The notes beneath the pieces were generated by a model. That model did no database searches, was not told the DNA's origin, and worked only from the letters and a program-made list of their open reading frames with translations. From assembly GCA_009903775.1 (NCBI GenBank), contig WYEM01000111.1, positions 1 to 36,814 on the forward strand: 36,814 nucleotides of DNA. Direction: 5' to 3'. The DNA comes from Nitrososphaerota archaeon. Lineage in GTDB: Archaea; Thermoproteota; Nitrososphaeria; Conexivisphaerales; Conexivisphaeraceae. How positions within the stretch are numbered: the stretch's first letter is position 1; each line of letters starts with the position of its first letter. Of the stretch, positions 26,772-36,814 are shown one piece after another. The position numbers and the translations under genes are program-made.

Positions 26772-27914
26772 ATGCTTTCCTCGAGGGTGACGAGGCTCAA
26801 GGAGTCGGCGACCCTCAAGATGATGGAGCGGGCCAAGGCGCTCGAGGCCCGCGGCGTCAGGGTGATCTCGCTCGACGTGGGGGAGCCGGACTTCCCGACG
26901 CCGAGGGAGGTCGTGGACGCCGCCTACCGCGCGATGCTCGAGGGCTACACCCACTACACCCCCAGCAAGGGGCTGCCCGAGCTCAGGAGGGCGATCGTCG
27001 AGAAGCTGAGGAGGGACAACGGCATCGACGTGACCGCCGACCAGGTGCTGGTCACGCCGGGCGCGAAGCAGGCCCTCTTCTACCTGTTCATGGCGCTGCT
27101 AGACGAGGGCGACGAGGTCATCATCGCGACCCCGGCCTGGCCCAGCTACTGGGAGATGGTCTCGGTCGCGGGCGGCGTCGTCAAGGAGGCCCCGCCCTCG
27201 GACGGCTACGGCCTGAACCTCGAGGCGATCGAGGGGCTGGTCACCGACAGGACGAAGGCGATAGTGGTGAACAGCCCGAACAACCCATCCGGCGCAGTCT
27301 TCAGCAGGGAGGACATGGAGGGGCTGGTCGAGCTCGCCTCCAGGAGGAAGCTGATCGTGATATCCGACGAGATCTACGAGAAGATCCTCTACGAGGGGAC
27401 CCACGTGAGCCCCGCCAGCCTGCCCGGCGGCGAGGAAACGGTGGTCGTGGTCAACGGCTTCAGCAAGACGTTCGCGATGACCGGGTGGAGGCTCGGCTAC
27501 CTGGCCGGCCCCAGGCAGATAGTGGACGCCGCGACGAAGCTGCAGCAGCACTCCGCCACCTGCGCCCCGGCCTTCGCCCAGAGGGCGGCCGCCGAGCTCC
27601 TCCCCCAGGCCGACAGGCTCGCGAGACCCATGGTCGAGGAGTTCAGGCGCCGCCGGGACTTCATCGTCTCCGCGCTCAGGTCGCTGGGCTTCAGGCTCGA
27701 GCCGCCGCGCGGCGCATTCTACGTGTTCCCGGAGCTCCCGGACTCGGAGCCGGACTCCACCGCCTTCGTCGAGAGGGCCCTGGAGGCCGGCGTCAGCATG
27801 ACCGACGGGAAGCCCTTCGGCGGGTTCTCGAGGAACGTGAGGATATCTTACGCGAACAGCTTGGAGAACCTGAGGGAGGCCATGGAGCGCCTCTCGGGAG
27901 TGCTCAAGAGGTGA
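26772..27914 (+). CDS. PLP-dependent class I aminotransferase (aspartate aminotransferase type)
   Basis: 380 aa. Conserved points: SLDVGEPDFPTP, YTPSKGLPELRRAI, PGAKQALF, ATPAWPSYW, NSPNNPSGAVF (Asn contacts), ISDEIYEKILYEG, and the Schiff-base lysine in NGFSKTFAMTGWRLGY; the C-terminal Arg lies in RISYANS. This is the I-gamma aminotransferase group common in archaea and thermophiles; aspartate is the likeliest donor but other amino acids are possible. ATG 26772 is about 30 bp after GTTTATCT (26738-26745). The stop overlaps by 11 bp the end of the convergent zinc-finger gene. Confidence 0.92.
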   Translation: MLSSRVTRLKESATLKMMERAKALEARGVRVISLDVGEPDFPTPREVVDAAYRAMLEGYTHYTPSKGLPELRRAIVEKLRRDNGIDVTADQVLVTPGAKQALFYLFMALLDEGDEVIIATPAWPSYWEMVSVAGGVVKEAPPSDGYGLNLEAIEGLVTDRTKAIVVNSPNNPSGAVFSREDMEGLVELASRRKLIVISDEIYEKILYEGTHVSPASLPGGEETVVVVNGFSKTFAMTGWRLGYLAGPRQIVDAATKLQQHSATCAPAFAQRAAAELLPQADRLARPMVEEFRRRRDFIVSALRSLGFRLEPPRGAFYVFPELPDSEPDSTAFVERALEAGVSMTDGKPFGGFSRNVRISYANSLENLREAMERLSGVLKR

Positions 27915-28170
27915 TAGTAAAACGGCAAACCTCGCCCTTCAGGGCGGGGTGAAGGCTTCGGCGCCTCCTCTTCTTCTTCCTCCACGAGGAGTGCGCCCTG
28001 TTCCAGTGCATCTCGAGCTCCTTGCGGCTCGAGAACGTCGCGCCGCACGCCCTGCACCTGTAGGTCCTAACGGCCTCCTCCTCCACTGGGTCCGCATAAT
28101 CGTCCGGGGTTTCCTCGCCTGCGGTCGCGCCCCCGGCCTCGATATCGAAATCAGATTGATCCGCGGTCAA
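27904..28170 (-). CDS. C2H2 zinc-finger protein
   Basis: 88 aa: an acidic, probably disordered N-terminus (DIEAGGATAGEETPDDYADP), one classic C2H2 finger YRCRACGATFSSRKELEMHW with the two histidines (H-x4-H) following in NRAH, and a basic tail WRKKKRRRR. Single-finger proteins of this size occur in many TACK archaea; DNA binding is likely, role unknown. The only in-frame start is TTG 28170, with a purine-rich GAGGAG about 11 nt upstream and an AT-rich box at 28234-28222. The last 17 codons are supplied by hairpin element copy 2, so the stop codon is inside or just beyond that element. Confidence 0.7.
   Translation of the reverse strand: MTADQSDFDIEAGGATAGEETPDDYADPVEEEAVRTYRCRACGATFSSRKELEMHWNRAHSSWRKKKRRRRSLHPALKGEVCRFTITS
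27912..27949 (-). repeat. Hairpin element copy 2, inside the end of the zinc-finger gene
   Basis: On the minus strand a 9-bp stem (CCCCGCCCT with AGGGCGAGG, one G-T pair, 2-nt loop) is followed by TTTGCCGTTTTACTATCA. Compared with copy 1 the stem, the T(C/T)TGCCGT box and the terminal TATCA are all conserved, in the same relative order. Confidence 0.7.
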
Positions 28171-28487: not shown

Positions 28488-28510
28488 AGCGCGCGAGGAG
28501 GAGCCGTTGA

Positions 28511-28608
28511 GCCGCGGTAGTATAGACTGGCCCAGTATGCCGGCCTGTCGACGGCCGCGGACCGGCGGATAGCCGGTGACCCGGGTTCAAATCCCGGCCG
28601 CGGCGCCA
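28511..28608 (+). tRNA. tRNA-Asp (GUC) with a 20-nt intron and encoded CCA
   Basis: Acceptor GCCGCGG/CCGCGGC, D-arm GTAT, anticodon stem CCGGC/GCCGG, T-arm CCGGG-TTCAAAT-CCCGG and discriminator G. Exon 1 is 28511-28550, ending CTGTCG with anticodon GTC at 28547-28549; exon 2 starts at 28571. The 20-nt insert 28551-28570 sits at canonical position 37/38, the standard archaeal site cut by the splicing endonuclease. CCA is encoded at 28606-28608, unlike the tRNA-Lys in this window. Confidence 0.93.
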
Positions 28609-28688
28609 GCCGCACCCACTCCTGGGGCGGGCCATCCCTCCCTGTCAACGCCCGTTGAGCTCCGCGGCAATGACCATCCACAACAACC

Positions 28689-28696
28689 GATTATTG
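28689..28696 (+). promoter_or_regulatory. TATA-like box deciding the start of the helical protein gene
   Basis: GATTATTG, centred about 28 bp before GTG 28720. Confidence 0.45.
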
Positions 28697-28719
28697 ACGC
28701 GCGGGGCATCGAGGAGCAC

Positions 28720-29094
28720 GTGGGGAACCCCGAGGAGGGCGAGGAGAGGGTCAGCATCGAGGACCTCAGGAGGGAGCTCGACGAGGTCCTGAGGGCGCTC
28801 GTGGGGAGGATAGAGGGGCTGAAGGACGGCCTGGACCCCGAGGTCCTGAGCAGGTGGTACCGCGAGATAGAGGGGCAGGCGCGCGAGAGGGCGCCGGAGG
28901 AGCTCAGGGAGAAGATCAACGTAATACAGGACCCGGACCTCCCGATGAGGTTCAGGATCCACGCATCCAGGAGGGCCGTGCCGTTCCTCGTGGACGCGAT
29001 AGAGTCCAACCTGCCCAGGATGCCCTTGGCCACCAGGATCTACTTCATGCTCGTCGAGAGCCTAATATGGGAGGAGTACAAAAAGTCGAGGTAG
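28720..29094 (+). CDS. Uncharacterised helical protein, weak resemblance to UPF0147
   Basis: 124 aa from GTG 28720; the longer upstream frame would run into the tRNA and is rejected. Two long amphipathic helices (SIEDLRRELDEVLRALVGRI and ERAPEELREKINVIQDPDLP), then RFRIHASRRAVPFLVDAI and LATRIYFMLVESLIWEEYKK. The order D-x-x-x-P-x-x-x-R-x-x-A-x-x-A is reminiscent of the HEAT-like pattern of UPF0147 proteins, but the match is weak and no function is claimed. It is transcribed alone, just downstream of tRNA-Asp. Confidence 0.65.
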   Translation: MGNPEEGEERVSIEDLRRELDEVLRALVGRIEGLKDGLDPEVLSRWYREIEGQARERAPEELREKINVIQDPDLPMRFRIHASRRAVPFLVDAIESNLPRMPLATRIYFMLVESLIWEEYKKSR

Positions 29095-29271
29095 GCGCCG
29101 CGGACCTGGCGACTCAGCTCGTCCGACCCCCTCTCCGAAGGGTTAGGTCTGTCGTCTTTATCAGGGGCGTGTAGGTGGGAGACCGCGTTCCATTTGCCCC
29201 GAACGTGTTTTGCGAGCTGAAGTCGCGGTGCAGCACGAACCCGCGTGCCCTCCCGCGAGCGCCTGGTCCTG

Positions 29272-29344
29272 GCCGCGCTAGGAACTATAGCCTGGCATGG
29301 TCCGGGCAGCGCTGGCCCGGCGCAGGTGAGCCCGGATCAAAATC
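29272..29344 (+). pseudogene. Degenerate tRNA-like sequence (relic)
   Basis: Reads GCCGCGCTAG, then TATAGCCTGGC, a stem CGGGC/GCCCG and GGTGAGCCCGGATCAAAATC. The order and spacing mirror the tRNA-Asp at 28511 (GCCGCGGTAG, TATAGACTGGC, GGTGACCCGGGTTCAAATC). There is no intact acceptor pairing, no U33 and no 3' half of the T-stem, so it is not functional. It marks the point where base composition and gene content change. Confidence 0.45.
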
Positions 29345-29367
29345 AGCTGATAATACGCCCTGATCAA

Positions 29368-29401
29368 CAAAAACTTTCCACAAAATAATAAAAAATATTT
29401 G
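29368..29401 (-). terminator. T-rich terminator downstream of the DUF981 gene
   Basis: The minus strand after the stop at 29408 is strongly T-rich (AAATATTTTTTATTATTTTG), as in archaeal intrinsic terminators. Confidence 0.55.
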
Positions 29402-29407
29402 TGTGAT

Positions 29408-30013
29408 TCACGGCGCATGCGCAAGATGCGCTCCAACCGTCGGCGCGATCAGAACCAGATTTACGATCAGCGATAGTATTGCCAGGACGCCGAAGATGAG
29501 CGCCGCCCACGCCACCCATTTGGCGCGTTGACCGGGCATCCTGTAATCGTCGATGGCGATCCCCAGGGGCAGCGATAGGAAGCCCGTCAGGCCGTAGAGC
29601 GCGAAGAGCGCGAACATCGCGGCCGGCTCCTGCGTCATGCCGAGCGAGTATCCAACGGAGCCGTAGTAGATCGTGAGGAGCCCCAGGATGGCCGTGAGGA
29701 CGCCGGCGTAGAGGAACCTCTGGCCGGAGCGCAGCGTGAGCCACCAGGCGAGCACCGACACGCCCAGGAACACCAGCGGATCGTAGAATAGGATGTTGTA
29801 GCTCCCGGGCAGCGGCCACGTGAACTCGTCCTTGAGCGCCACTATCAGGAGCACGAGCCCGGGGGCGAGCGCCGCGTTGAGGAAGCTGGACAGCTCGAAG
29901 TCGATCGGGCGCCCCTTCCTCATGGAGTTCCACGCGGCGAAGCCGAAGACGGCGCTGGCCAGACCCAGGGCCGACAGGACCGCTTCGTCCATCAGGAGAT
30001 CGTCCACGAACAT
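29408..30013 (-). CDS. DUF981-type membrane protein
   Basis: 201 aa with about six hydrophobic helices: ALGLASAVFGFAAW, NAALAPGLVLLIVAL, ILFYDPLVFLGVSVLAWWL, FLYAGVLTAILGLLTIYYG, MFALFALYGLTGFLSLPLG and VAWAALIFGVLAILSLIVNLVLI. The layout and the F-x-x-W-N-x-x-R-K-G segment after helix 1 fit the archaeal DUF981 family (COG3374 type), common in acidophiles, function unknown. ATG 30013 is preceded by a Shine-Dalgarno-like GAGGGG (30021-30016) and TATA-like AATAAAAATAG (30052-30042). Divergent from the DsrE operon. Confidence 0.75.
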   Translation of the reverse strand: MFVDDLLMDEAVLSALGLASAVFGFAAWNSMRKGRPIDFELSSFLNAALAPGLVLLIVALKDEFTWPLPGSYNILFYDPLVFLGVSVLAWWLTLRSGQRFLYAGVLTAILGLLTIYYGSVGYSLGMTQEPAAMFALFALYGLTGFLSLPLGIAIDDYRMPGQRAKWVAWAALIFGVLAILSLIVNLVLIAPTVGAHLAHAP

Positions 30014-30040
30014 TTCCCCTCGAGGAACTCAAAGAAAAGC

Positions 30041-30116
30041 CTATTTTTATTCTTTTATTAGTTCGCCGATGAATACAGTAATACATAACTATACATCGCG
30101 TAAAAGTTAAATAACA
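30041..30116. promoter_or_regulatory. AT-rich divergent promoter region, DUF981 gene and dsrE operon
   Basis: Minus-strand AATAAAAATAG (30052-30042) for the DUF981 gene and plus-strand GTTAAATA (30106-30113), about 27 bp before ATG 30137, for the DsrE gene. It lacks the GACCATATTTGT operator seen near tusA. Confidence 0.55.
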
Positions 30117-30136
30117 ACATTATCCTATGCCACTCG

Positions 30137-30541
30137 ATGAGCAAGTTCTCCATGATTGTGTTCTCGGGTACCGAGGACAAGATGATACCGGTCGGCGTGC
30201 TGTCCCAGGCGGCCGCGGCGATGGGCTATGAGGTGAGGGTCTTCGTGACCGGGTGGGCGCTGCTCAGGTTTCTCAGGAACCCGCCCCCGCCCACGTGGCC
30301 GAAGGAATTCGAGCACTACGTTCCGAGGTTGGCGAAGGGCATGGAGGCGGCGAAGGCCCCCACGTGGGCCGACATGCTGAGGCAGGCCAGGTCGATGGGC
30401 GCCAAGGTCTACGCCTGCAGCATGATGTCGCAGGCCATGGGGCTGAGCAAGGAGGACTACGATCCCTCGTTAGTTGACGACGTCGTCGGGGCGGCGACCT
30501 TCCTGCAGGAGTCCGAGGGCGGGCAAGTGATCTTCATCTAA
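30137..30541 (+). CDS. DsrE/DsrF-like sulfur-relay family protein
   Basis: 134 aa. MSKFSMIVFSGTEDKMIPVG, then AAAAMGYEVRVFVTGWAL, a long loop, and MGAKVYACSMMSQAMGLSKE with candidate sulfur-carrying C94, the pattern of DsrE2/peroxiredoxin-like DsrE proteins. These proteins carry persulfide between TusA and oxidising or reducing enzymes. First gene of a three-gene unit with an SQR-like flavoprotein (20-bp gap) and DUF1641 protein. Leaderless geometry with the TATA at 30106. Whether it delivers sulfur to or accepts it from the flavoprotein is not evident. Confidence 0.85.
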   Translation: MSKFSMIVFSGTEDKMIPVGVLSQAAAAMGYEVRVFVTGWALLRFLRNPPPPTWPKEFEHYVPRLAKGMEAAKAPTWADMLRQARSMGAKVYACSMMSQAMGLSKEDYDPSLVDDVVGAATFLQESEGGQVIFI

Positions 30542-30561
30542 CAGTCGCGGGAGCGATCGGG

Positions 30562-31755
30562 ATGCCCCAGGCGCGTCGCGTTGTGATAGTGGGGGGCGGC
30601 GCGGGGGGCCTGATAGCCGCCAACATGCTGGCCCGCGAGAGGGACGTCAAGGTCACGCTGCTGAACGATACCCCCTATCACTACTACCTGCCCCAGCTGC
30701 TTCAGATAGCGTTCAGGGGTGACGACTCCCAGCTGAGGAGGCCCCTCGATTCCCTGGTCAGGAGCGGCGTGGAGCTGTTGCTGGAGCGCGCGGCTCGCGT
30801 GAACCTGGCCGAGAGGAGCGTGGAGACGGAATCCGGCAGATCGATCCCCTATGATTACCTGATACTCGCGCCCGGCTTGACGGTGGACCATTCCGCCATA
30901 CGCGGGAACGAGCCCCTCGCCTCCAAATTCGGGGACTTCCACTCCACCCCGGAGAACGCCTGGAGGGTCCACTCCGCTATCAGCGGCATTAATAAGGGCC
31001 GCGTAGTGGTCGCGGTGGCCGATCCGAAGCACAGGTGCCCGCCGTCCCCCTACGAGGCCGTGCTGCTGGCCGACGAGGCCCTGAGGGCCAGGGGGGTTCG
31101 GCAGGATGTCTCGATAACCCTGGCCGTCCCGTATCCGAGGGCCTATCCATCCGAGAGCTTCAACGAGGTCATCGAGCCCGTGCTCAGGGAGAGGGGCATA
31201 GCGATCGAGACGTTCTTCACCGTGGACAGCGTGGACGTCGAGGGCGGGAGGATGACGTCCCTCGAGGGCGGGGAGCTGCAGTTCGACGTCGGCATAGTGG
31301 TGCCAATGCATAAGGGGCCCAGGTTGAGCGTGCTGCCCGAGGGCACCCTAGACGAGGATGGGTTCGTGAAGGCCGACAGGCTGACCAACGCGGTGAACGG
31401 CTACGACGACGCGTTCGCAATAGGTGACGCGTCGACCTCGGCCAACGCCAGGACGGGCGTCACCGCCCACCTGCAGGCGGAGGTCGTGGTCAAGAGGCTC
31501 AGGGGGGAACATTCTGTGAACACCGGGAGGACCAACTGCCCCACGGAGCTGGGCTTCGGCATGGGGACCTTCGTGATAAGCGACTACCAGCATCCCGCAG
31601 TGAGGTTGCCGCCTATGCGCGTTTTCTTCCTCATGAAGCGGATGTTCGCGGATATGTACTGGGATATGCTGAAGTATCCGGAGTTCTGGAACCCGATCTT
31701 CGAATCCTATCTGGAGGCCACGGAGCCCGGGAGGCTCAGCAAGATTTTCGGGTGA
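30562..31755 (+). CDS. Sulfide:quinone oxidoreductase-like flavoprotein (copy 1)
   Basis: 397 aa. FAD-binding VVIVGGGAGGLIAANML (8-24), YDYLILAPGL, second FAD motif AFAIGDASTSAN, and a C-terminal membrane-associating stretch (FFLMKRMFADMYWDM). Two cysteines match the SQR redox pair: C159 in KHRCPPSPYEA and C326 in TNCPTELG. SQRs oxidise sulfide and pass electrons to quinone; related proteins with the same fold may handle other persulfides, so activity is inferred. The short C-terminus and absence of a third Cys place it among the archaeal SQR-like subtypes. Followed 10 bp later by DUF1641. Confidence 0.85.
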   Translation: MPQARRVVIVGGGAGGLIAANMLARERDVKVTLLNDTPYHYYLPQLLQIAFRGDDSQLRRPLDSLVRSGVELLLERAARVNLAERSVETESGRSIPYDYLILAPGLTVDHSAIRGNEPLASKFGDFHSTPENAWRVHSAISGINKGRVVVAVADPKHRCPPSPYEAVLLADEALRARGVRQDVSITLAVPYPRAYPSESFNEVIEPVLRERGIAIETFFTVDSVDVEGGRMTSLEGGELQFDVGIVVPMHKGPRLSVLPEGTLDEDGFVKADRLTNAVNGYDDAFAIGDASTSANARTGVTAHLQAEVVVKRLRGEHSVNTGRTNCPTELGFGMGTFVISDYQHPAVRLPPMRVFFLMKRMFADMYWDMLKYPEFWNPIFESYLEATEPGRLSKIFG

Positions 31756-31765
31756 GGTGAAGGAT

Positions 31766-32167
31766 ATGTCATCCTCCGAGCTGAACTCCGAATCCCTGGA
31801 GCGCCTCCTGAGCCTGCTGAACTCCCTCGGCGCTGTGCTGAATGATCAGGAGTTCCTGAAGCGCGCCTCGGAGCTTCTCCTGGAGCCGGAGACGTTCATC
31901 GTCATCGAGAGGCTACCCCGGCTCATAGCCCTCCTCGAGAGGCTTAGCCGTCCGGAGATCCTGGACCTCCTCGAGCGCCTAGTGGAATCCCTGGAGTCGG
32001 CGGCATCGGCACCGCCTCCCTCCCTCTCCCGCTTACTGGCGAGCTTGAGCGACCCGGGCGTCAGAAGGTGGCTCGGCGCACTCCTGGGGGCGTTGAGCTC
32101 CCGGGGAGTGGATGAGCGCGCGAAGGGCCGATGCGCGACTCCCGCTCGTGCAGGTGATCATATCTAA
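31766..32167 (+). CDS. DUF1641 protein (copy a)
   Basis: 133 aa, nearly all helical and leucine-rich (LERLLSLLNSLGAVLN, LIALLERLSRPEILDLLERL, LLASLSDPGVRRWLGALLG), as in DUF1641 proteins encoded next to SQR-like or formate-dehydrogenase-like enzymes. ATG 31766 has a good Shine-Dalgarno, AGGTGA at 31756-31761, and its upstream GTG 31757 would destroy that site. It probably assists the SQR-like partner, perhaps in membrane or complex assembly; no function is established. Confidence 0.75.
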   Translation: MSSSELNSESLERLLSLLNSLGAVLNDQEFLKRASELLLEPETFIVIERLPRLIALLERLSRPEILDLLERLVESLESAASAPPPSLSRLLASLSDPGVRRWLGALLGALSSRGVDERAKGRCATPARAGDHI

Positions 32168-32178
32168 CTGGGGTTCCG

Positions 32179-32214
32179 GTTGGGGCGGGGGCTTACCTCG
32201 CGCCCCGCCCCAAC
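32179..32214. terminator. Strong GC hairpin between convergent DUF1641 operons
   Basis: GTTGGGGCGGGG (32179-32190) and its exact complement (32203-32214) form a 12-bp stem with a 12-nt loop, 12 bp downstream of the DUF1641a stop. The symmetry could act on both converging transcripts or protect 3' ends; no T-run follows, so it is not a classic intrinsic terminator. Confidence 0.55.
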
Positions 32215-32396
32215 GAGGGCCCGCGCTGGCACGCGGATGTATATGTTAAAACGCTGCGGGGATCGGGGCGGGAACGGCCCCGAGCTCGCCCTCCACCAGC
32301 CCTCGGCGGGCGAGGTAATCCATCCATGGATATGCCGGGTGCGGTTGAAATGACTGTGATCTCGTTTATTTCCCAGGGCGGTTCCTGGAGCGCTTC
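32215..32396. other. Intergenic spacer between the convergent sulfur operons
   Basis: No credible gene is present. It contains a TATA-like ATGTATATGTTAAAAC (32233-32248) without a suitable start codon downstream on either strand and a short palindrome ATCCATGGAT within 32322-32336. Confidence 0.4.
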
Positions 32397-32840
32397 CTAC
32401 TTCCCAGACCTCAGCGCCCTCGCGCAGGCGCCGAACTCCTTGGCCAGATCGAGCAGCAGCCCCAGACCCTGCGCCACGTCCGGATCGCTCAGCCGACGGC
32501 TGAGCGACAGCAGTCCCATCTTCCTGGGCTTTGAGACGTCGATCTTGCCCAAAGAGTCCGCGAGGCATGACGCCACGTCGCTGAGCGCGTTCTGCGCGTT
32601 GGAGAACCTGTCCCCGTCGACGCGCTCCAGTCCCCTCGCAAGGGCCCCCAGGAGCCCGACCATCCTCATTATGGCGGGATCCGTTGCGGCCGCCAGGAAC
32701 GCCTCGTCCGCATTATCGGCGAGGCGCTCGAGGAGCCCCAGGAGCCCGCTCCTCTTGAGCTGGGCCAGCGCGTTCAGGAGGCCCACCAGCGCCTGAACCT
32801 GATCGTCGGTCAGCTCGGGTTGCGCTCCGGCACCGCTCAT
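32397..32840 (-). CDS. DUF1641 protein (copy b)
   Basis: 147 aa: TDDQVQALVGLLNALAQLKR, LLGLLERLADNADEAFLAAA, MRMVGLLGALARGLERVDGD and LSRRLSDPDVAQGLGLLLDLAKEFG. It shares the Leu-rich helical plan and the L-S-D-P-(D/G)-V motif with copy a but is clearly diverged. ATG 32840 overlaps the SQR-like copy 2 stop (ATGA), indicating translational coupling. Its downstream end faces the hairpin at 32179-32214. Confidence 0.78.
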   Translation of the reverse strand: MSGAGAQPELTDDQVQALVGLLNALAQLKRSGLLGLLERLADNADEAFLAAATDPAIMRMVGLLGALARGLERVDGDRFSNAQNALSDVASCLADSLGKIDVSKPRKMGLLSLSRRLSDPDVAQGLGLLLDLAKEFGACARALRSGK

Positions 32841-34027
32841 TCGGCACCACCCCTCAGGCCGTCCAGCCAGCCATGGTAGAACGCCTGCTTCAGGAGGCGC
32901 ATGGGAGCGAAGGCGCCCAGGAAATAGCACTTGAGCATGTACATGCCCATCTTCGGATCGTAGGGCATCTCGCACAGCCCTCCCCAGCCCCTGGTGCCCG
33001 CGTAAGCCACGCAGGAGACCGGGCTGGGCATGAACGCCGGGCCGAAGCCGCCGGCAGCGTCACCCAGCAGATTCGTCACGGACGTGGTCGCCAGCGACTC
33101 CACGAAGACCCCGGCGAGGCCTATCCCCAGGGGCGGCAGCGAGTGCTCCCCGGCGAAGTACACGTCGTCGAACTTGGGATGCCTCCCCGTGGGCAGGACG
33201 GGCGTCCACCTCGGGTCCGGCTTGAACACGAAGTCCTCGTTCTGGGCCAGCGGCTTGGGGAGCCCGGGCGGCGGGACCTTGATCAGCAGATCGTACTTGT
33301 ACTCCCAGCTCTCCGTGAGCACCTTCTTGTTGCCCGGCTCCACGCGCACCAGCTTGCTCTTGGGGACGTACTCGATCCCCCTGGCCGCCATCTCCTCCTC
33401 CAGGAACCTCGAGATCGCGCTCCCCAGTCCCATGCCGTTGCTCATTATCACCGGCCTGACGTGCGGGTCCAGGAGCCTGATGCTGACCGAGCGGCCCCTG
33501 GCTTTGTAGAAGTCAGCCAGCACCGTGACGAGCTCGTACGGGTACACGCCGCACCTGTAGAGCTCATCCGGCACAAGCACCGTTATGTTCTGGCCATCCC
33601 TCACGGACTTCAGCGCCTCCCTCATCTTCAACGCGTCCTCGAGCGTGTAGTTGTGGTAGCCCTCCCCGCTCAGGTCGGGATAGGCGTCCCATTTCATCTC
33701 GCTCCCGAGCGCCACTATCAGGTAATCATATTGATACTTGGCCTTGGCGCCGGTGACCGCGCGGTTGCCCGCATCTATCGCCTGGACCTCGTCCTGCACG
33801 ACCTTGATGCCCAGCTTCTCCATGTTCTTGACAGGCGCCCATGTCTCGTCGGGGGACGCGTAGCCCAGCGCGACGTCGAAGAAGAGCGGGGGCATGTAGT
33901 GCCTCTCCTCGCGCTCCACCAGGGTCACGTCCAGGTCGACGCCTAACTCCTTAGCCCCCCGCACCAGCTTCTTCGCCGAGGAATATCCACCGACCCCTCC
34001 TCCCAGGATCAGGACCTTCTTTCCCAT
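32837..34027 (-). CDS. Sulfide:quinone oxidoreductase-like flavoprotein (copy 2)
   Basis: 396 aa. FAD motif VLILGGGVGGYSSAKKL (5-21), YDYLIVALGSEMKW, DDVYFAGEHSLPPLGIG as the second FAD motif, and a C-terminal amphipathic region (MYMLKCYFLGAFAPMRLL). C159 in YRCGVYPYE corresponds to C159 of copy 1, and C339 in SCVAYAGTRGWGG occupies the position of the second redox Cys; C352 and C367 are extra. It is closer to classic SQR than copy 1 in these features. It lies between tusA (18 bp upstream) and DUF1641b, in the same orientation, so is probably regulated with tusA. Confidence 0.87.
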   Translation of the reverse strand: MGKKVLILGGGVGGYSSAKKLVRGAKELGVDLDVTLVEREERHYMPPLFFDVALGYASPDETWAPVKNMEKLGIKVVQDEVQAIDAGNRAVTGAKAKYQYDYLIVALGSEMKWDAYPDLSGEGYHNYTLEDALKMREALKSVRDGQNITVLVPDELYRCGVYPYELVTVLADFYKARGRSVSIRLLDPHVRPVIMSNGMGLGSAISRFLEEEMAARGIEYVPKSKLVRVEPGNKKVLTESWEYKYDLLIKVPPPGLPKPLAQNEDFVFKPDPRWTPVLPTGRHPKFDDVYFAGEHSLPPLGIGLAGVFVESLATTSVTNLLGDAAGGFGPAFMPSPVSCVAYAGTRGWGGLCEMPYDPKMGMYMLKCYFLGAFAPMRLLKQAFYHGWLDGLRGGAE

Positions 34028-34044
34028 GAGCTGCGCCAGCCCCC

Positions 34045-34287
34045 CTACTTCTTGGCCGTAATCTTTATCACGGCCACGATCTTATCCGGGTCATTCCTCA
34101 TCTCGAGCAGCTGGTTCCCGGTCCGCTTTATCCAAGCCTCGACGTCGGGCTTGAAGCCCTGATCTGTCGCCCAGACCTCTATAAGGTCACCGTTGGCGGC
34201 GTTCCTGTAGGCCTTCACTATCTCGGTTATGGGACCTGGACAGGCAAGTCCTCTAGCATCCACGACGATTTTTCTACCATCACTCAT
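34045..34287 (-). CDS. tusA: TusA-family sulfurtransferase
   Basis: 80 aa. IVVDARGLACPGPITEIVKAY holds the CPxP-type motif with C16, whose thiol carries a persulfide; the rest (GDLIEVWATDQGFKPDVEAW) is the usual TusA two-layer fold. In archaeal and bacterial sulfur oxidisers TusA passes sulfane sulfur together with DsrE. TATA-like GGTTTTAAAAAGG (34321-34309) is about 27 bp before ATG 34287 (GTG 34290 is the alternative), and two copies of a 17-bp operator-like motif lie directly upstream. First gene of tusA - sqr-like 2 - DUF1641b. Confidence 0.93.
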   Translation of the reverse strand: MSDGRKIVVDARGLACPGPITEIVKAYRNAANGDLIEVWATDQGFKPDVEAWIKRTGNQLLEMRNDPDKIVAVIKITAKK

Positions 34288-34308
34288 CACTGCCGGTTTC
34301 AGATCCCC

Positions 34309-34321
34309 TTTTTAAAACCTT
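34309..34321 (-). promoter_or_regulatory. TATA box of the tusA operon
   Basis: GGTTTTAAAAAGG on the minus strand, centred about 28 bp from the tusA ATG. Confidence 0.6.
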
Positions 34322-34325
34322 ACCA

Positions 34326-34342
34326 TAGCCATATTTGTTAGC
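34326..34342. promoter_or_regulatory. Operator-like motif, copy A (tusA-proximal)
   Basis: TAGCCATATTTGTTAGC. It shares CCATATTTGT with copies B and C, with weaker flanks. It lies immediately upstream of the tusA TATA box. Confidence 0.55.
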
Positions 34343-34355
34343 AAAAATCTTATAA

Positions 34356-34372
34356 TGACCATATTTGTCAAC
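34356..34372. promoter_or_regulatory. Operator-like motif, copy B
   Basis: TGACCATATTTGTCAAC, with dyad TGAC-N7-GTCA. Its centre is 30 bp (about three helical turns) from copy A. Confidence 0.6.
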
Positions 34373-34726
34373 ACGTCTGATCCCCGGCCCTTAACTGTAG
34401 ATCCAAAATTCATCCCAGCGATCCCGGCTGGAAACGCGTTCGGCGAGGGCGGTTCCCCGTCCAAGCGACCCGTACCTTGTCTCCGCGTCCATCTGGAGGG
34501 CAAATTGGGGACGTGGGGCGTGCCGGCCCAGGCGCCCAGGGACTACGTGGAGGACCGAGGGCTCGGCGTGAAAGTGACTCATATTTAAGGAGATGATTTT
34601 GGGTCTACGGTGAAGGGTGAGGGTTCCGCTGGGGTCTCGGGCGTTACCCGCCTTTTGCACGAACCACTGAACGCTCCATGATGCTCGATTTGAAATCCTT
34701 CGCTTCAGCCCACGCGGTGGGGCCAC

Positions 34727-34758
34727 CCCGCCCCTTCCAGGGGCGGGATTTTTGCCGT
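34727..34758 (+). repeat. Hairpin element copy 3
   Basis: CCCGCCCC (34727-34734) pairs with GGGGCGGG (34740-34747) across a 5-nt loop and is followed by ATTTTTGCCGT. It has the same stem and (T)TTGCCGT box order as copies 1 and 2; the terminal TATCA is absent. Confidence 0.6.
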
Positions 34759-34900
34759 CGCCTCCAGCCGCGCGCCAGCGCCGGTCCTCGGTTGGTTTGA
34801 GCATGGCATGGGGGCTGGCCTACCTCATCGTCTGAACATATCGGCCGCATTTTGAGAAATCGCGAAGGTCGCCTCGCCCTCGTCGGGTCGATCTGCACGC

Positions 34901-34975
34901 GAGCTCGATGAAATGCGGCCTGACAAAGCCTCATCCGACCAGCATCCTATCCGAAGGCCGCACTTCATCGAGCTC
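34901..34975. repeat. 21-bp inverted repeat with 33-bp spacer
   Basis: 34901-34921 (GAGCTCGATGAAATGCGGCCT) is, apart from one base, the reverse complement of 34955-34975. No open frame spans it convincingly. It could be an RNA hairpin, a binding site or the ends of a tiny deleted element. Confidence 0.7.
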
Positions 34976-34979
34976 ACCC

Positions 34980-35133
34980 CTACCCGAGCGAGAGGATCGG
35001 GTGCAGCCCGTTCAGCCACCGCGGCATCCCCTCCCTCCACTCGAGCGGGAGCCTCCCCAGGCCCCCGTCCTCGAGCACGAAGTCCCGCGTGGACGTGAAC
35101 GCGGAGATCCAGTTGCGCGTGAGCTCGAAGGCA
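34980..35133 (-). pseudogene. Possible C-terminal gene fragment
   Basis: A minus-strand frame reads AFELTRNWISAFTSTRDFVL, then LPLEWREGMPRWLNGLHPIL and a stop. Its composition is protein-like, whereas upstream in frame it becomes Gly/Pro/Ser-rich with no proper start. A related stretch (GDAGRLNGPRP, 18375-18420 minus) lies in another intergenic gap. Family not recognised. Confidence 0.35.
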
Positions 35134-35280
35134 CGCCCGGACCTAGCCTGCGCTCGCCGGCCGGGAAGGGATCCTCCTGATCCGGTGCCGATCAGCGATA
35201 CGGCAGATCCGGGCGGAGGGTTCCCCGGATCCGGGATCATCGATCGGCCTGGCGGAACGAGCCAATTCAAACACCAATAA

Positions 35281-35288
35281 CCTTAAAT
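35281..35288 (+). promoter_or_regulatory. TATA box of the RHH regulator gene
   Basis: CCTTAAAT, centred about 29 bp before ATG 35314; a leaderless transcript is likely. Confidence 0.55.
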
Positions 35289-35296
35289 GAAATAGT

Positions 35297-35314
35297 GTGT
35301 ACAAATATGGTCAA
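35297..35314. promoter_or_regulatory. Operator-like motif, copy C, between TATA box and start of the RHH gene
   Basis: The plus strand reads GTGTACAAATATGGTCAA, i.e. TTGACCATATTTGTACAC on the minus strand. This matches copy B over TGACCATATTTGT. The position over the transcription start is classic for autorepression. Confidence 0.6.
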
Positions 35315-35991
35315 TGGCTAGGACCAACCTTGCAGTCGACAGGGACGTTGCCGAGCGCCTGTCAGAGGAAGCGAGGGCACAGGGCAAGACGCTTTACGCG
35401 CTGACGAACGAGATTTTGAGGGCATGCATTGATATTTACAGGGACGGCGGGGATGCGCGCCAAGCAGCGGCGCTCTGGCGCGCATCCAACATAATGAGGG
35501 ATTTGGACCTCGTGCCTGTTCCGCTCGGCATACTGGAGTGGTTGATAGATAGCCTGGGCGAGAGCAGCATGAACGGGCTGCTGGAGGCCATGGAGAAGCA
35601 AGGATCCATTCTCGGCAAATATCTATCCATACTTTACCCACAGTTCACCTCCCTCTTCGAGGAAACCCCGGAAGTCCTGGCTAGGCTTCTCCCGGCCAAG
35701 AAGGTAGAGATCGTCTCCAATGAACCCGGGGGAGGCCTCCGTGTTAGGTTGGTCGGCATCGGGAATTCGGAGAGGGCCGCGCGTGCCCTCGGCAGGCTCC
35801 TGGAGGAGGCTGTACGCAGCTATGGGGCGCTAAAGCTTGTGGAGTTCAAATACGCAGTGGGAGTGCTGGAGCTCGTGCTGGCGCCGATCGATGAGGGCAA
35901 CGCTCAACCGAGCCGTCGAACCGGCGCGAACCGTTCCGCCAGCTTCGATCCCCATGGGCCGCAGCGCCGGGCTGAGCGCCTCCGGCCATGA
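35314..35991 (+). CDS. Ribbon-helix-helix transcriptional regulator
   Basis: 225 aa. Residues 1-45, MARTNLAVDRDVAERLSEEA followed by RAQGKTLYALTNEILRACI, form a ribbon-helix-helix: a short beta strand and two helices with the conserved G-K-T-x-x-x-x-x-N turn. Residues about 50-190 form an alpha/beta domain (PLGILEWLIDSLGESSMNGL, VEIVSNEPGGGLRVRLVGIG, LVEFKYAVGVLELVLAPI) that may sense a ligand; I do not recognise it. The last 35 residues are low complexity. An operator-like motif overlaps its transcription start and two more precede tusA, so autoregulation and control of the tusA operon are inferred. It is transcribed away from tusA across the 0.9 kb gap. Confidence 0.75.
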   Translation: MARTNLAVDRDVAERLSEEARAQGKTLYALTNEILRACIDIYRDGGDARQAAALWRASNIMRDLDLVPVPLGILEWLIDSLGESSMNGLLEAMEKQGSILGKYLSILYPQFTSLFEETPEVLARLLPAKKVEIVSNEPGGGLRVRLVGIGNSERAARALGRLLEEAVRSYGALKLVEFKYAVGVLELVLAPIDEGNAQPSRRTGANRSASFDPHGPQRRAERLRP

Positions 35992-36348
35992 CCGAGCCTC
36001 CATCCCCCGCGCAATCCCCATCCGGGTACCGCACGTTCGCCGATCTTCGCGGCTTTGTAGCGGGCTGAGGATTTCGCTGCCGCCATCGCCTTTCCCGGTC
36101 AAAATCCCAGCCAGGATCGCCTCGAGCTTCATGAGCAATCGATTCGGGCCCGCGCCGGAAGCCGCGAGGGAGATCGGCCCGCTCCTCATCCTAAGTGAGT
36201 TGGGTCGACGCGGAGCACTCAGGATGAGAGGATTTCTGAGTTTTTGCTCCTTCCCACCCGCCCCGCCTCGGAGGGGAACCCGCGTAATTGCTACGCGCGT
36301 GCGGCGCAAAAATAAAAAATAAAATAAATAAATTATGGAACAGATCGC
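35992..36348. other. Intergenic region without a confident gene
   Basis: Open frames on both strands have mixed, non-convincing composition. Towards the right it becomes extremely AT-rich (36308-36340). No RNA gene or repeat recognised. Confidence 0.45.
36308..36343 (-). terminator. T-rich terminator of the surface protein gene
   Basis: Downstream of the stop at 36349 the minus strand is almost pure A/T with long T-runs (ATTTATTTATTTTATTTTTT), as in archaeal termination sites. Confidence 0.6.
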
Positions 36349-36814
36349 TCAGCCGGCGGTCGCCGTGGCGGTCGCGTTGGACGCGGGTATCGTCATCACC
36401 GTTATCCCGTAGGACTGCCCGGCGATCGGCGTGATGGTGATCGTGATCGGCCCGCTCGACCCGCCGATGTCCAGGCGCGGCCCGAGCGTTATGACGCCCT
36501 CGAACGTGAACGTGGCGCTCTGCCCGGGCCCGAGCGTGTAGCCGGGCACCATGGGCCCGGGTATCGGCCCGGGGTGCTCGTCGGAGTCGTGCATTACGTT
36601 GGAGTCCGCGAGGGCCGGCGCCGCGGGCCACTGCGACCAGTTGCCCCTCCCGGAGCCGGGGAGGCCAGAGGGGGCCGGCGGCGTGAAGTTCCAGCGCCAC
36701 AGTTGGGTCGCGTTCACGAGCGTGGTGCCGTTGGGCCCCGCTATGGTTATGTGGTCCGGCGCGCTGCGGCTCATATTGCCCAGCCACTCCTTCATAATAT
36801 GATCGAACTCCTTC
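36349..36814 (-). CDS. Secreted or surface protein (5' end probably beyond the window)
   Basis: At least 148 aa. Sequons are frequent (NGT, NAT, NFT, NWS, NAT), a Pro/Gly-rich middle (GPIPGPMVPGYTLGPG) precedes a beta-rich C-terminus (ATFTFEGVITLGPRLDIGGS, SYGITVMTI) and an Asn-Ala-Thr tail. Such composition is typical of glycosylated archaeal surface proteins or pilins. The frame is open to the window edge, where KEFDHI precedes the ATG at 36795, so the N-terminal signal sequence is likely outside. A TATA-like sequence at 36803-36796 raises the alternative of a leaderless ATG at 36774, but that would lack an export signal. Family not identified. Confidence 0.6.
   Translation of the reverse strand, partial: KEFDHIMKEWLGNMSRSAPDHITIAGPNGTTLVNATQLWRWNFTPPAPSGLPGSGRGNWSQWPAAPALADSNVMHDSDEHPGPIPGPMVPGYTLGPGQSATFTFEGVITLGPRLDIGGSSGPITITITPIAGQSYGITVMTIPASNATATATAG

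Follow-up and report, generated by a model that had tools for sequence, protein, structure and literature searches.

Spacer DNA bordering an accessory region with Thermocladium-like sulfur genes, and its probably fortuitous likeness to tRNA-Asp, in a Nitrososphaerota archaeon

Archaeal integration sites and the setting of the segment

Among attachment sites of thaumarchaeal elements, the shortest measure 8 bp and the median is 17 bp, and all but one of the tRNA-targeting elements make use of the 3'-distal part of the tRNA, according to excerpts of PMC6563490. It is an exact stretch of common sequence that defines an archaeal attachment site, with 40–50 bp given for two integrase types, according to excerpts of PMC8371274. 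Literature such as these excerpts yielded no account of the present locus in searches made with terms other than gene names. In the window, by which we mean the whole stretch of DNA that was analysed (36,814 bp), the initial annotation had described the segment 29272–29344 as a degenerate tRNA-like sequence that may mark the integration of an element with sulfur genes. The segment resembles the tRNA scars at archaeal attL and attR in that it borders an accessory region and has some likeness to a nearby tRNA. It differs from them in that no exact repeat longer than 7 nt is present, in that the likeness involves the 5' rather than the 3' part of the tRNA, and in that neither a PF00589 integrase nor a second copy was found. 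The interpretation as a tRNA relic and integration site is not upheld on these grounds.

The window corresponds to the whole of contig C2 of the source genome (G000), which comprises 1.45 Mb in 117 contigs and is 79.8% complete; its congeners G001 and G002 are 99% and 55% complete, respectively. The segment is located within a 313-bp spacer between two convergent genes, arranged tail to tail (Table 1). The left-hand gene, referred to here as the conserved ORF, is matched in 20 of 21 genomes (G000 counted) and was assigned to no Pfam or NCBIfam family under the limits applied. When the spacer (29095–29410) was compared with 60 relatives, nothing other than the window itself was found at E ≤ 0.001; 15 matches of 18–44 nt, mostly at the A+T-rich end, had E values of 0.0097 to 0.095.

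Given that contig C2 stops at 36,814 and that a fifth of the genome is missing, the negative results for a repeat and an integrase are limited in reach: none of the 117 contigs contained a second copy of 29200–29400 at E ≤ 0.001, so that the matching direct repeat expected for an integrated element, with exact tRNA sequence at both ends, was not recovered beyond the word of 7 nt, and no PF00589 match was detected at E ≤ 0.01 in G000 (incomplete), G001, or G002. The search for recombinases covered the PF00589 family, for which a single match was obtained in G004, a genome of the same order.

The initial annotation had also placed a tRNA-Asp gene about 760 bp upstream of the segment, and a tRNA gene is indeed present at a distance of 761 bp. 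ARAGORN labels this gene Arg(TCG), as it does a near-identical gene in G002. Once the 20-nt intron is removed, and with the arms read by hand, the loop reads as CUGUCGA and the anticodon as GUC, which points to tRNA-Asp. Automatic annotation would miscall this intron-bearing tRNA-Asp as tRNA-Arg(TCG).

Table 1. Coordinates of the features around the spacer, in positions of the window.
Feature	Position	Strand	Basis or remark
tRNA-Asp(GTC) gene, 20-nt intron after position 37	28511..28608	+	tRNA search; intron and anticodon read by hand
Conserved ORF	28720..29094	+	start uncertain; longest ORF 28576–29094; final backbone gene ahead of the boundary
Intergenic spacer	29095..29407		conserved ORF ends at 29094; DUF981 stop at 29408 (minus)
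Proposed tRNA relic, its likeness most likely due to chance	29272..29344	+	models, profile, pairwise scans, shuffles
GC-rich hairpin downstream of conserved ORF	29298..29339	+	z of –2.47 alone, stability moderately above that of shuffles
A+T-rich stretch with T runs, after DUF981 gene	29345..29407	-	archaeal terminator-like by eye
DUF981 gene	29408..30013	-	PF06168, 1.5e-32; 55–56% relatives elsewhere in G001 and G002
DsrE-like gene	30137..30541	+	PF13686, 2.7e-17; 70% to Thermocladium L139
Sulfide:quinone reductase-like flavoprotein (SQR1)	30562..31755	+	Pfam/NCBIfam; 51% to Thermocladium
DUF1641 protein gene	32397..32936	-	PF07849, 1.7e-9 (ORF 32397–32975); start uncertain, overlaps next ORF
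Second SQR/flavocytochrome-c-like flavoprotein (SQR2)	32837..34027	-	Pfam family search
TusA-like gene	34045..34290	-	PF01206, 3.9e-19; 64% to Thermocladium L139
ORF with relatives near DUF981 genes, family f2 of the order	35314..35991	+	loci L041–L044
ORF cut by contig end	36349..36813	-	40% relative next to conserved ORF in G001

Likeness of the segment to tRNA

The letters quoted in the initial annotation (GCCGCG.TAG and so on) are present at 29272–29344, and the segment aligns with mature tRNA-Asp with 46 identities in 70 columns, of which 9 are gapped. The longest exact word common to the two sequences is 7 nt, and words of at least 7 nt were shared with tRNA-Asp by 46% of 3,290 background windows. 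One explanation for the likeness, very improbable in our judgment, is that tRNA-Asp, or a different tRNA with a long D-loop, was duplicated long ago and that the segment is the decayed copy, left by an integrated element that brought the sulfur genes. The alignment spans positions 1–61 of the mature tRNA, and the absence of the tRNA 3' end speaks against such a duplicate.

A narrower first test of the segment was favourable (0 of 2902 windows; a proportion of 0.0003 with 3000 shuffles of the 73-mer), and this result did not hold in wider tests. When both tRNAs were masked and the contig was scanned in 966 tiles, the segment gave the best match to tRNA-Asp (46.0), followed by tile 10726 on the minus strand (45.0), a ranking in favour of a decayed duplicate. 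The initial annotation had looked over a whole contig, and at that scale a score of at least 46 was attained in 29 of 120 dinucleotide-shuffled sequences of 23.5 kb (mean best score, 43.6), and a 20-kb stretch of the congener G001 in which ARAGORN detects no tRNA also reached 46.0; a likeness beyond chance is thus not confirmed at the scale of the contig, and both results weigh against a duplicate. Two observations fit less well with chance. The unshuffled 23.5-kb background reached a top score of only 42.0, and shuffles of the spacer alone equalled the segment in just 3 of 1000 cases for tRNA-Asp and 5 of 300 for all 28 tRNAs, which is nominally significant. The comparison with the tRNA set of the genome, suggested in the initial annotation, was divided in its outcome even in these pairwise scores, which are the most sensitive of the tests: the spacer shuffles favoured a relation to tRNA, whereas the contig shuffles did not. 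Of 12,040 background windows (overlapping, so that the counts are not independent), 5, 46, 372, and 1 scored at least as high as the segment against the 28 tRNAs under four scoring schemes. The corresponding counts for tRNA-Asp alone were 0, 0, 151, and 0 of these 12,040 overlapping windows.

The likeness is confined to one strand, with z values above background of 5.4 for Asp, 4.9 for Val(GAC), and 3.1–4.1 for Pro(GGG), and several of the tRNAs that score above background at the segment have a long D-loop. When the other 27 tRNAs of the genome were scored against tRNA-Asp (37–123.5), 20 were above the value of 46 for the segment and 7 were below. The 20 tRNAs with higher scores are a point for chance. 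The one-strand likeness to several tRNAs is a point for a decayed duplicate, and both this pattern and the 7 real tRNAs with lower scores count against chance.

Models of tRNA structure and sequence did not recognise the segment, a further point against a duplicate. The RF00005 covariance model listed nothing at E ≤ 10 in 29100–29500. A covariance model of the genome's own tRNAs was built from 28 of 45 tRNA matches, with duplicates and with intron-bearing and long-variable-arm genes excluded, except that tRNA-Asp was retained with its intron removed. This model gave 8.2 bits (E of 7.7) at 29275–29324, ranking 55th of 74 window matches, and its top score in the spacer was on the opposite strand at 29204–29285 (11.6 bits, E of 1.3). 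The assertion that the segment cannot fold as a tRNA is in agreement with this lack of a cloverleaf score. With a structure-free tRNA profile HMM, the segment was absent on the plus strand among the matches listed, and the match in the spacer was on the minus strand (29281–29237, E of 18). Taken together, the two covariance models, the profile, the pairwise comparisons, and the shuffles led us to reject a tRNA relic at 29272–29344, which at contig scale cannot be told from chance. The likeness is most likely a chance match in GC-rich sequence, with a small remainder of probability for a decayed copy. An in-place remnant of tRNA-Pro(GGG) was also considered and rejected: the gene order in G001 and a further family member, G003, requires the opposite strand, on which the signal is at background (z of 0.2–0.3), and an intact copy is present on contig C60 of G000.

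The segment might instead contain a structured RNA, or a hairpin with which the transcript of the conserved ORF ends; such an explanation would accommodate a chance likeness to tRNA, and we consider it rather unlikely. The plus-strand fold of 29272–29344 had a z value of –2.79, with 1 of 200 shuffles as stable, compared with –0.27 for the minus strand. With the flanks included (29250–29360), by contrast, the value fell to –1.40, with 17 of 200 shuffles as stable. Rfam returned no match for a structured RNA at gathering score in the window and three weak, unlikely matches at E ≤ 10 near the segment, and relatives provided no homologous sequence for analysis of covariation. A transcript-end hairpin at 29298–29339 is possible on the basis of the predicted fold.

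Boundary and rearrangement beyond the conserved ORF

The boundary of an accessory region described in the initial annotation is evident in base composition and gene content. The G+C content is 0.695 in 1–29094 and 0.628 in 29408–36814, with 7.4-kb windows taken every 100 bp to the left of the boundary ranging from 0.682 to 0.711, and all three relatives examined (G001, G002, and G003) have other sequence and genes past the conserved ORF. The DNA immediately after the segment is A+T-rich, as had been noted, with a G+C content of 0.286 in 29345–29407. The T-rich terminators reported there were reproduced in part: T runs are seen by eye on the minus strand of 29345–29407, but a terminator consensus scan listed no site in this interval. 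The location of the segment at a real composition boundary favours a decayed tRNA duplicate and is a point against chance likeness. From the difference in composition and gene content we infer that the spacer is a junction of the backbone with laterally exchanged or rearranged DNA.

With regard to the suggestion that relatives might lack 29.3–36+ kb, searches of both congeners did not recover SQR1, SQR2, or DsrE; with the flanking order kept in none of the three relatives, no clean empty site was observed. A tRNA-Pro(GGG) gene adjoins the conserved ORF convergently in G001 and G003, whereas in G002 it is upstream of the ORF on the same strand. In G000, this tRNA gene is on contig C60 (18163–18238), and the sequence before it resembles that of G001 and G002. 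The conserved ORF and tRNA-Pro(GGG) are thus together in three family members, in two arrangements, and on separate contigs in G000. Given these differing arrangements, the spot at the conserved ORF appears to have been rearranged more than once within the family. In G001, the relative of 36349–36813 (40% identity) lies immediately 5' of the conserved ORF, at 72723–73115, so that genes from either end of the accessory stretch have relatives at a single spot of that genome.

We also considered whether a minus-strand tnpB gene of IS605 type, now decayed, left its 3' end in part of the spacer, in line with the TnpB sequences that follow the conserved ORF in G002 and G001; this explanation is unlikely. 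In its favour, TnpB (PF07282) matches follow the conserved ORF at a distance of about 0.15 kb in G002 (C10:15981–16094; 26.3 bits, at the cut-off) and of about 1.1 kb in G001 (70973–71167). The G002 match is the C-terminal end of a broken TnpB gene; it separates the conserved ORF from the following ORF, which by eye we take to be histidyl-tRNA-synthetase-like. The spacer itself contains, at 29117–29242 on the minus strand, an open stretch of 42 codons (GFVLHRDFSSQNTF...) that encodes GFVLHRDFSSQN..., which is similar to the RD-x-N-A motif of TnpB; this one TnpB-like motif is at 29230. It favours the explanation that, across all six frames of the window, the pattern [HDNY][RS]D.[NS][ASG] occurs nowhere else; against it, this pattern was picked after the sequence had been seen. 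The stretch had no Pfam or NCBIfam match, a search of 20 other genomes gave none at E ≤ 1, and its second match in its own genome (E of 0.35) was in another frame of a larger ORF. A TnpB profile constructed from relatives found nothing in the spacer among the 25 matches listed; this profile had 17 rows including the G002 remnant, so that the G002 control is partly circular, and the remnant was found independently of it by PF07282. The spacer thus shares with the IS605/IS1341-type remnant of G002 its position on the same side of the same conserved ORF and the strand opposite to it, but the window differs in showing no TnpB similarity beyond one short motif and no likeness to the TnpB C-terminal domain. 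With a motif that lacks family or profile support, a TnpB remnant in the spacer was rejected.

Rearrangement assisted by insertion sequences is nevertheless plausible at the conserved ORF, judging from the relatives' sequences. Of the 17 PF07282 matches over the cut-off in G000, none is on contig C2, which has no such match even at E ≤ 1; this result and that of the profile count against the involvement of insertion sequences. Elsewhere in the window, a frame on the plus strand at approximately 27910–27952 ends in ...VKRQTSPFRAG, resembling ...VKQEASPFRAG, the tail of TnpB in locus L103. It is possibly a trace of an insertion sequence end and overlaps the 3' end of a zinc-finger-like ORF on the minus strand (27904–28170).

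Sulfur genes and their neighbours

The closest counterpart of the sulfur genes is a cluster in Thermocladium (loci L139 and L140). In L139, DsrE, TusA, and SQR genes stand in a row, with the identities to those of the window given in Table 1. The window contains the same three genes, with DsrE and SQR adjacent and co-directional, and differs in that TusA is apart on the other strand, beside the second SQR-like gene. A scan of genome contigs with SQR1, which reaches close relatives only, yielded three loci, two in Thermocladium (51 and 47% identity) and one in Bacteroidetes (23%). In a tree of 12 rows, SQR1 paired with Thermocladium L139 with support of 100/99, nearer to this distant lineage than to the organism's own relatives; L140, whose SQR match was in several pieces, was left out of the tree, and a long-branch warning applied to other rows.

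Presence across genomes was counted for SQR1, SQR2, and DsrE. SQR1 was found in 7 of 21 genomes including G000 but in none of G001, G002, and G003. SQR2 was found in 8 of 21 and DsrE in 14 of 21, with neither found in G001 or G002; in G003, the SQR2 match was weak (E of 1.4e-4) and DsrE was 31% identical. Members of the order (G004, G006, G007, and G009; loci L047–L050 and L053) have DsrE, TusA, and SQR in a row at 30–43% identity to those of the window, which indicates that this gene set is not in itself foreign to the order. SQR2 paired with G017, of the same order, in the 12-row tree. Relatives of the DUF981 gene and of 35314–35991 are neighbours in four of the five f2 loci (L041–L044, not L045); this pairing of two of the stretch's genes in a family of the order argues further against a decayed tRNA duplicate left by an incoming element, as does the absence of a PF00589 match and of a repeat. 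Given the occurrence of DsrE, TusA, and SQR across the order, the pairing of SQR2 with G017, and the f2 neighbours, the stretch from 29.4 to 36.8 kb probably combines native genes with acquired ones and is not one element. The proposed delivery of the sulfur module by one element fits less well with these f2 neighbours, the stretch being not clearly a single foreign block.

A viral or plasmid origin was examined for the sulfur module. The DNA of 28500–36400 had no match in plasmids or phages, and SQR1 had none in viral contigs in a search that reaches close relatives only. Comparison of the SQR1 protein with plasmids gave 191 records, all at <60% identity (32.8–34.8% among the ten listed), so that distant SQRs do occur on plasmids. 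When ten proteins were compared with PHROGs, the single match was of SQR1 residues 5–38 to a ribonucleotide reductase family, which we take for a shared nucleotide-binding motif. Carriage of the module on viruses or plasmids was rejected on the basis of these results.

DsrE, TusA, and SQR1 were likely acquired horizontally, and the support for this acquisition is independent of the tRNA question. On the strength of the identities and the small tree, they were most likely acquired from, or are common to, Thermocladium-like archaea. The earlier proposal that the sulfur module came from outside is thereby retained for these three genes, but not in the form of a tRNA-integrated element or a single foreign block. 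It seems extremely unlikely that a decayed tRNA-Asp copy marks the entry of a lost integrase-bearing element with the Thermocladium-like sulfur cluster. We consider it likely instead that 29272–29344 is ordinary spacer DNA between convergent genes with a chance likeness to tRNA-Asp, at a junction from backbone to laterally exchanged or rearranged DNA that includes sulfur genes of Thermocladium-like type. The sulfur genes would have been gained from, or be shared with, Thermocladium-like archaea, and the conserved-ORF spot would have undergone repeated rearrangement, perhaps through IS605-type elements or other recombination. No site-specific integration into a tRNA gene would be required.

The two groups of Thermoproteota that share the sulfur genes may inhabit similar hot springs. 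The sulfur genes can be explained without a tRNA-targeting element, and that weak lead is set aside. The case that is left is a modest one, in which genes for sulfur metabolism are common to two distant groups of Thermoproteota.
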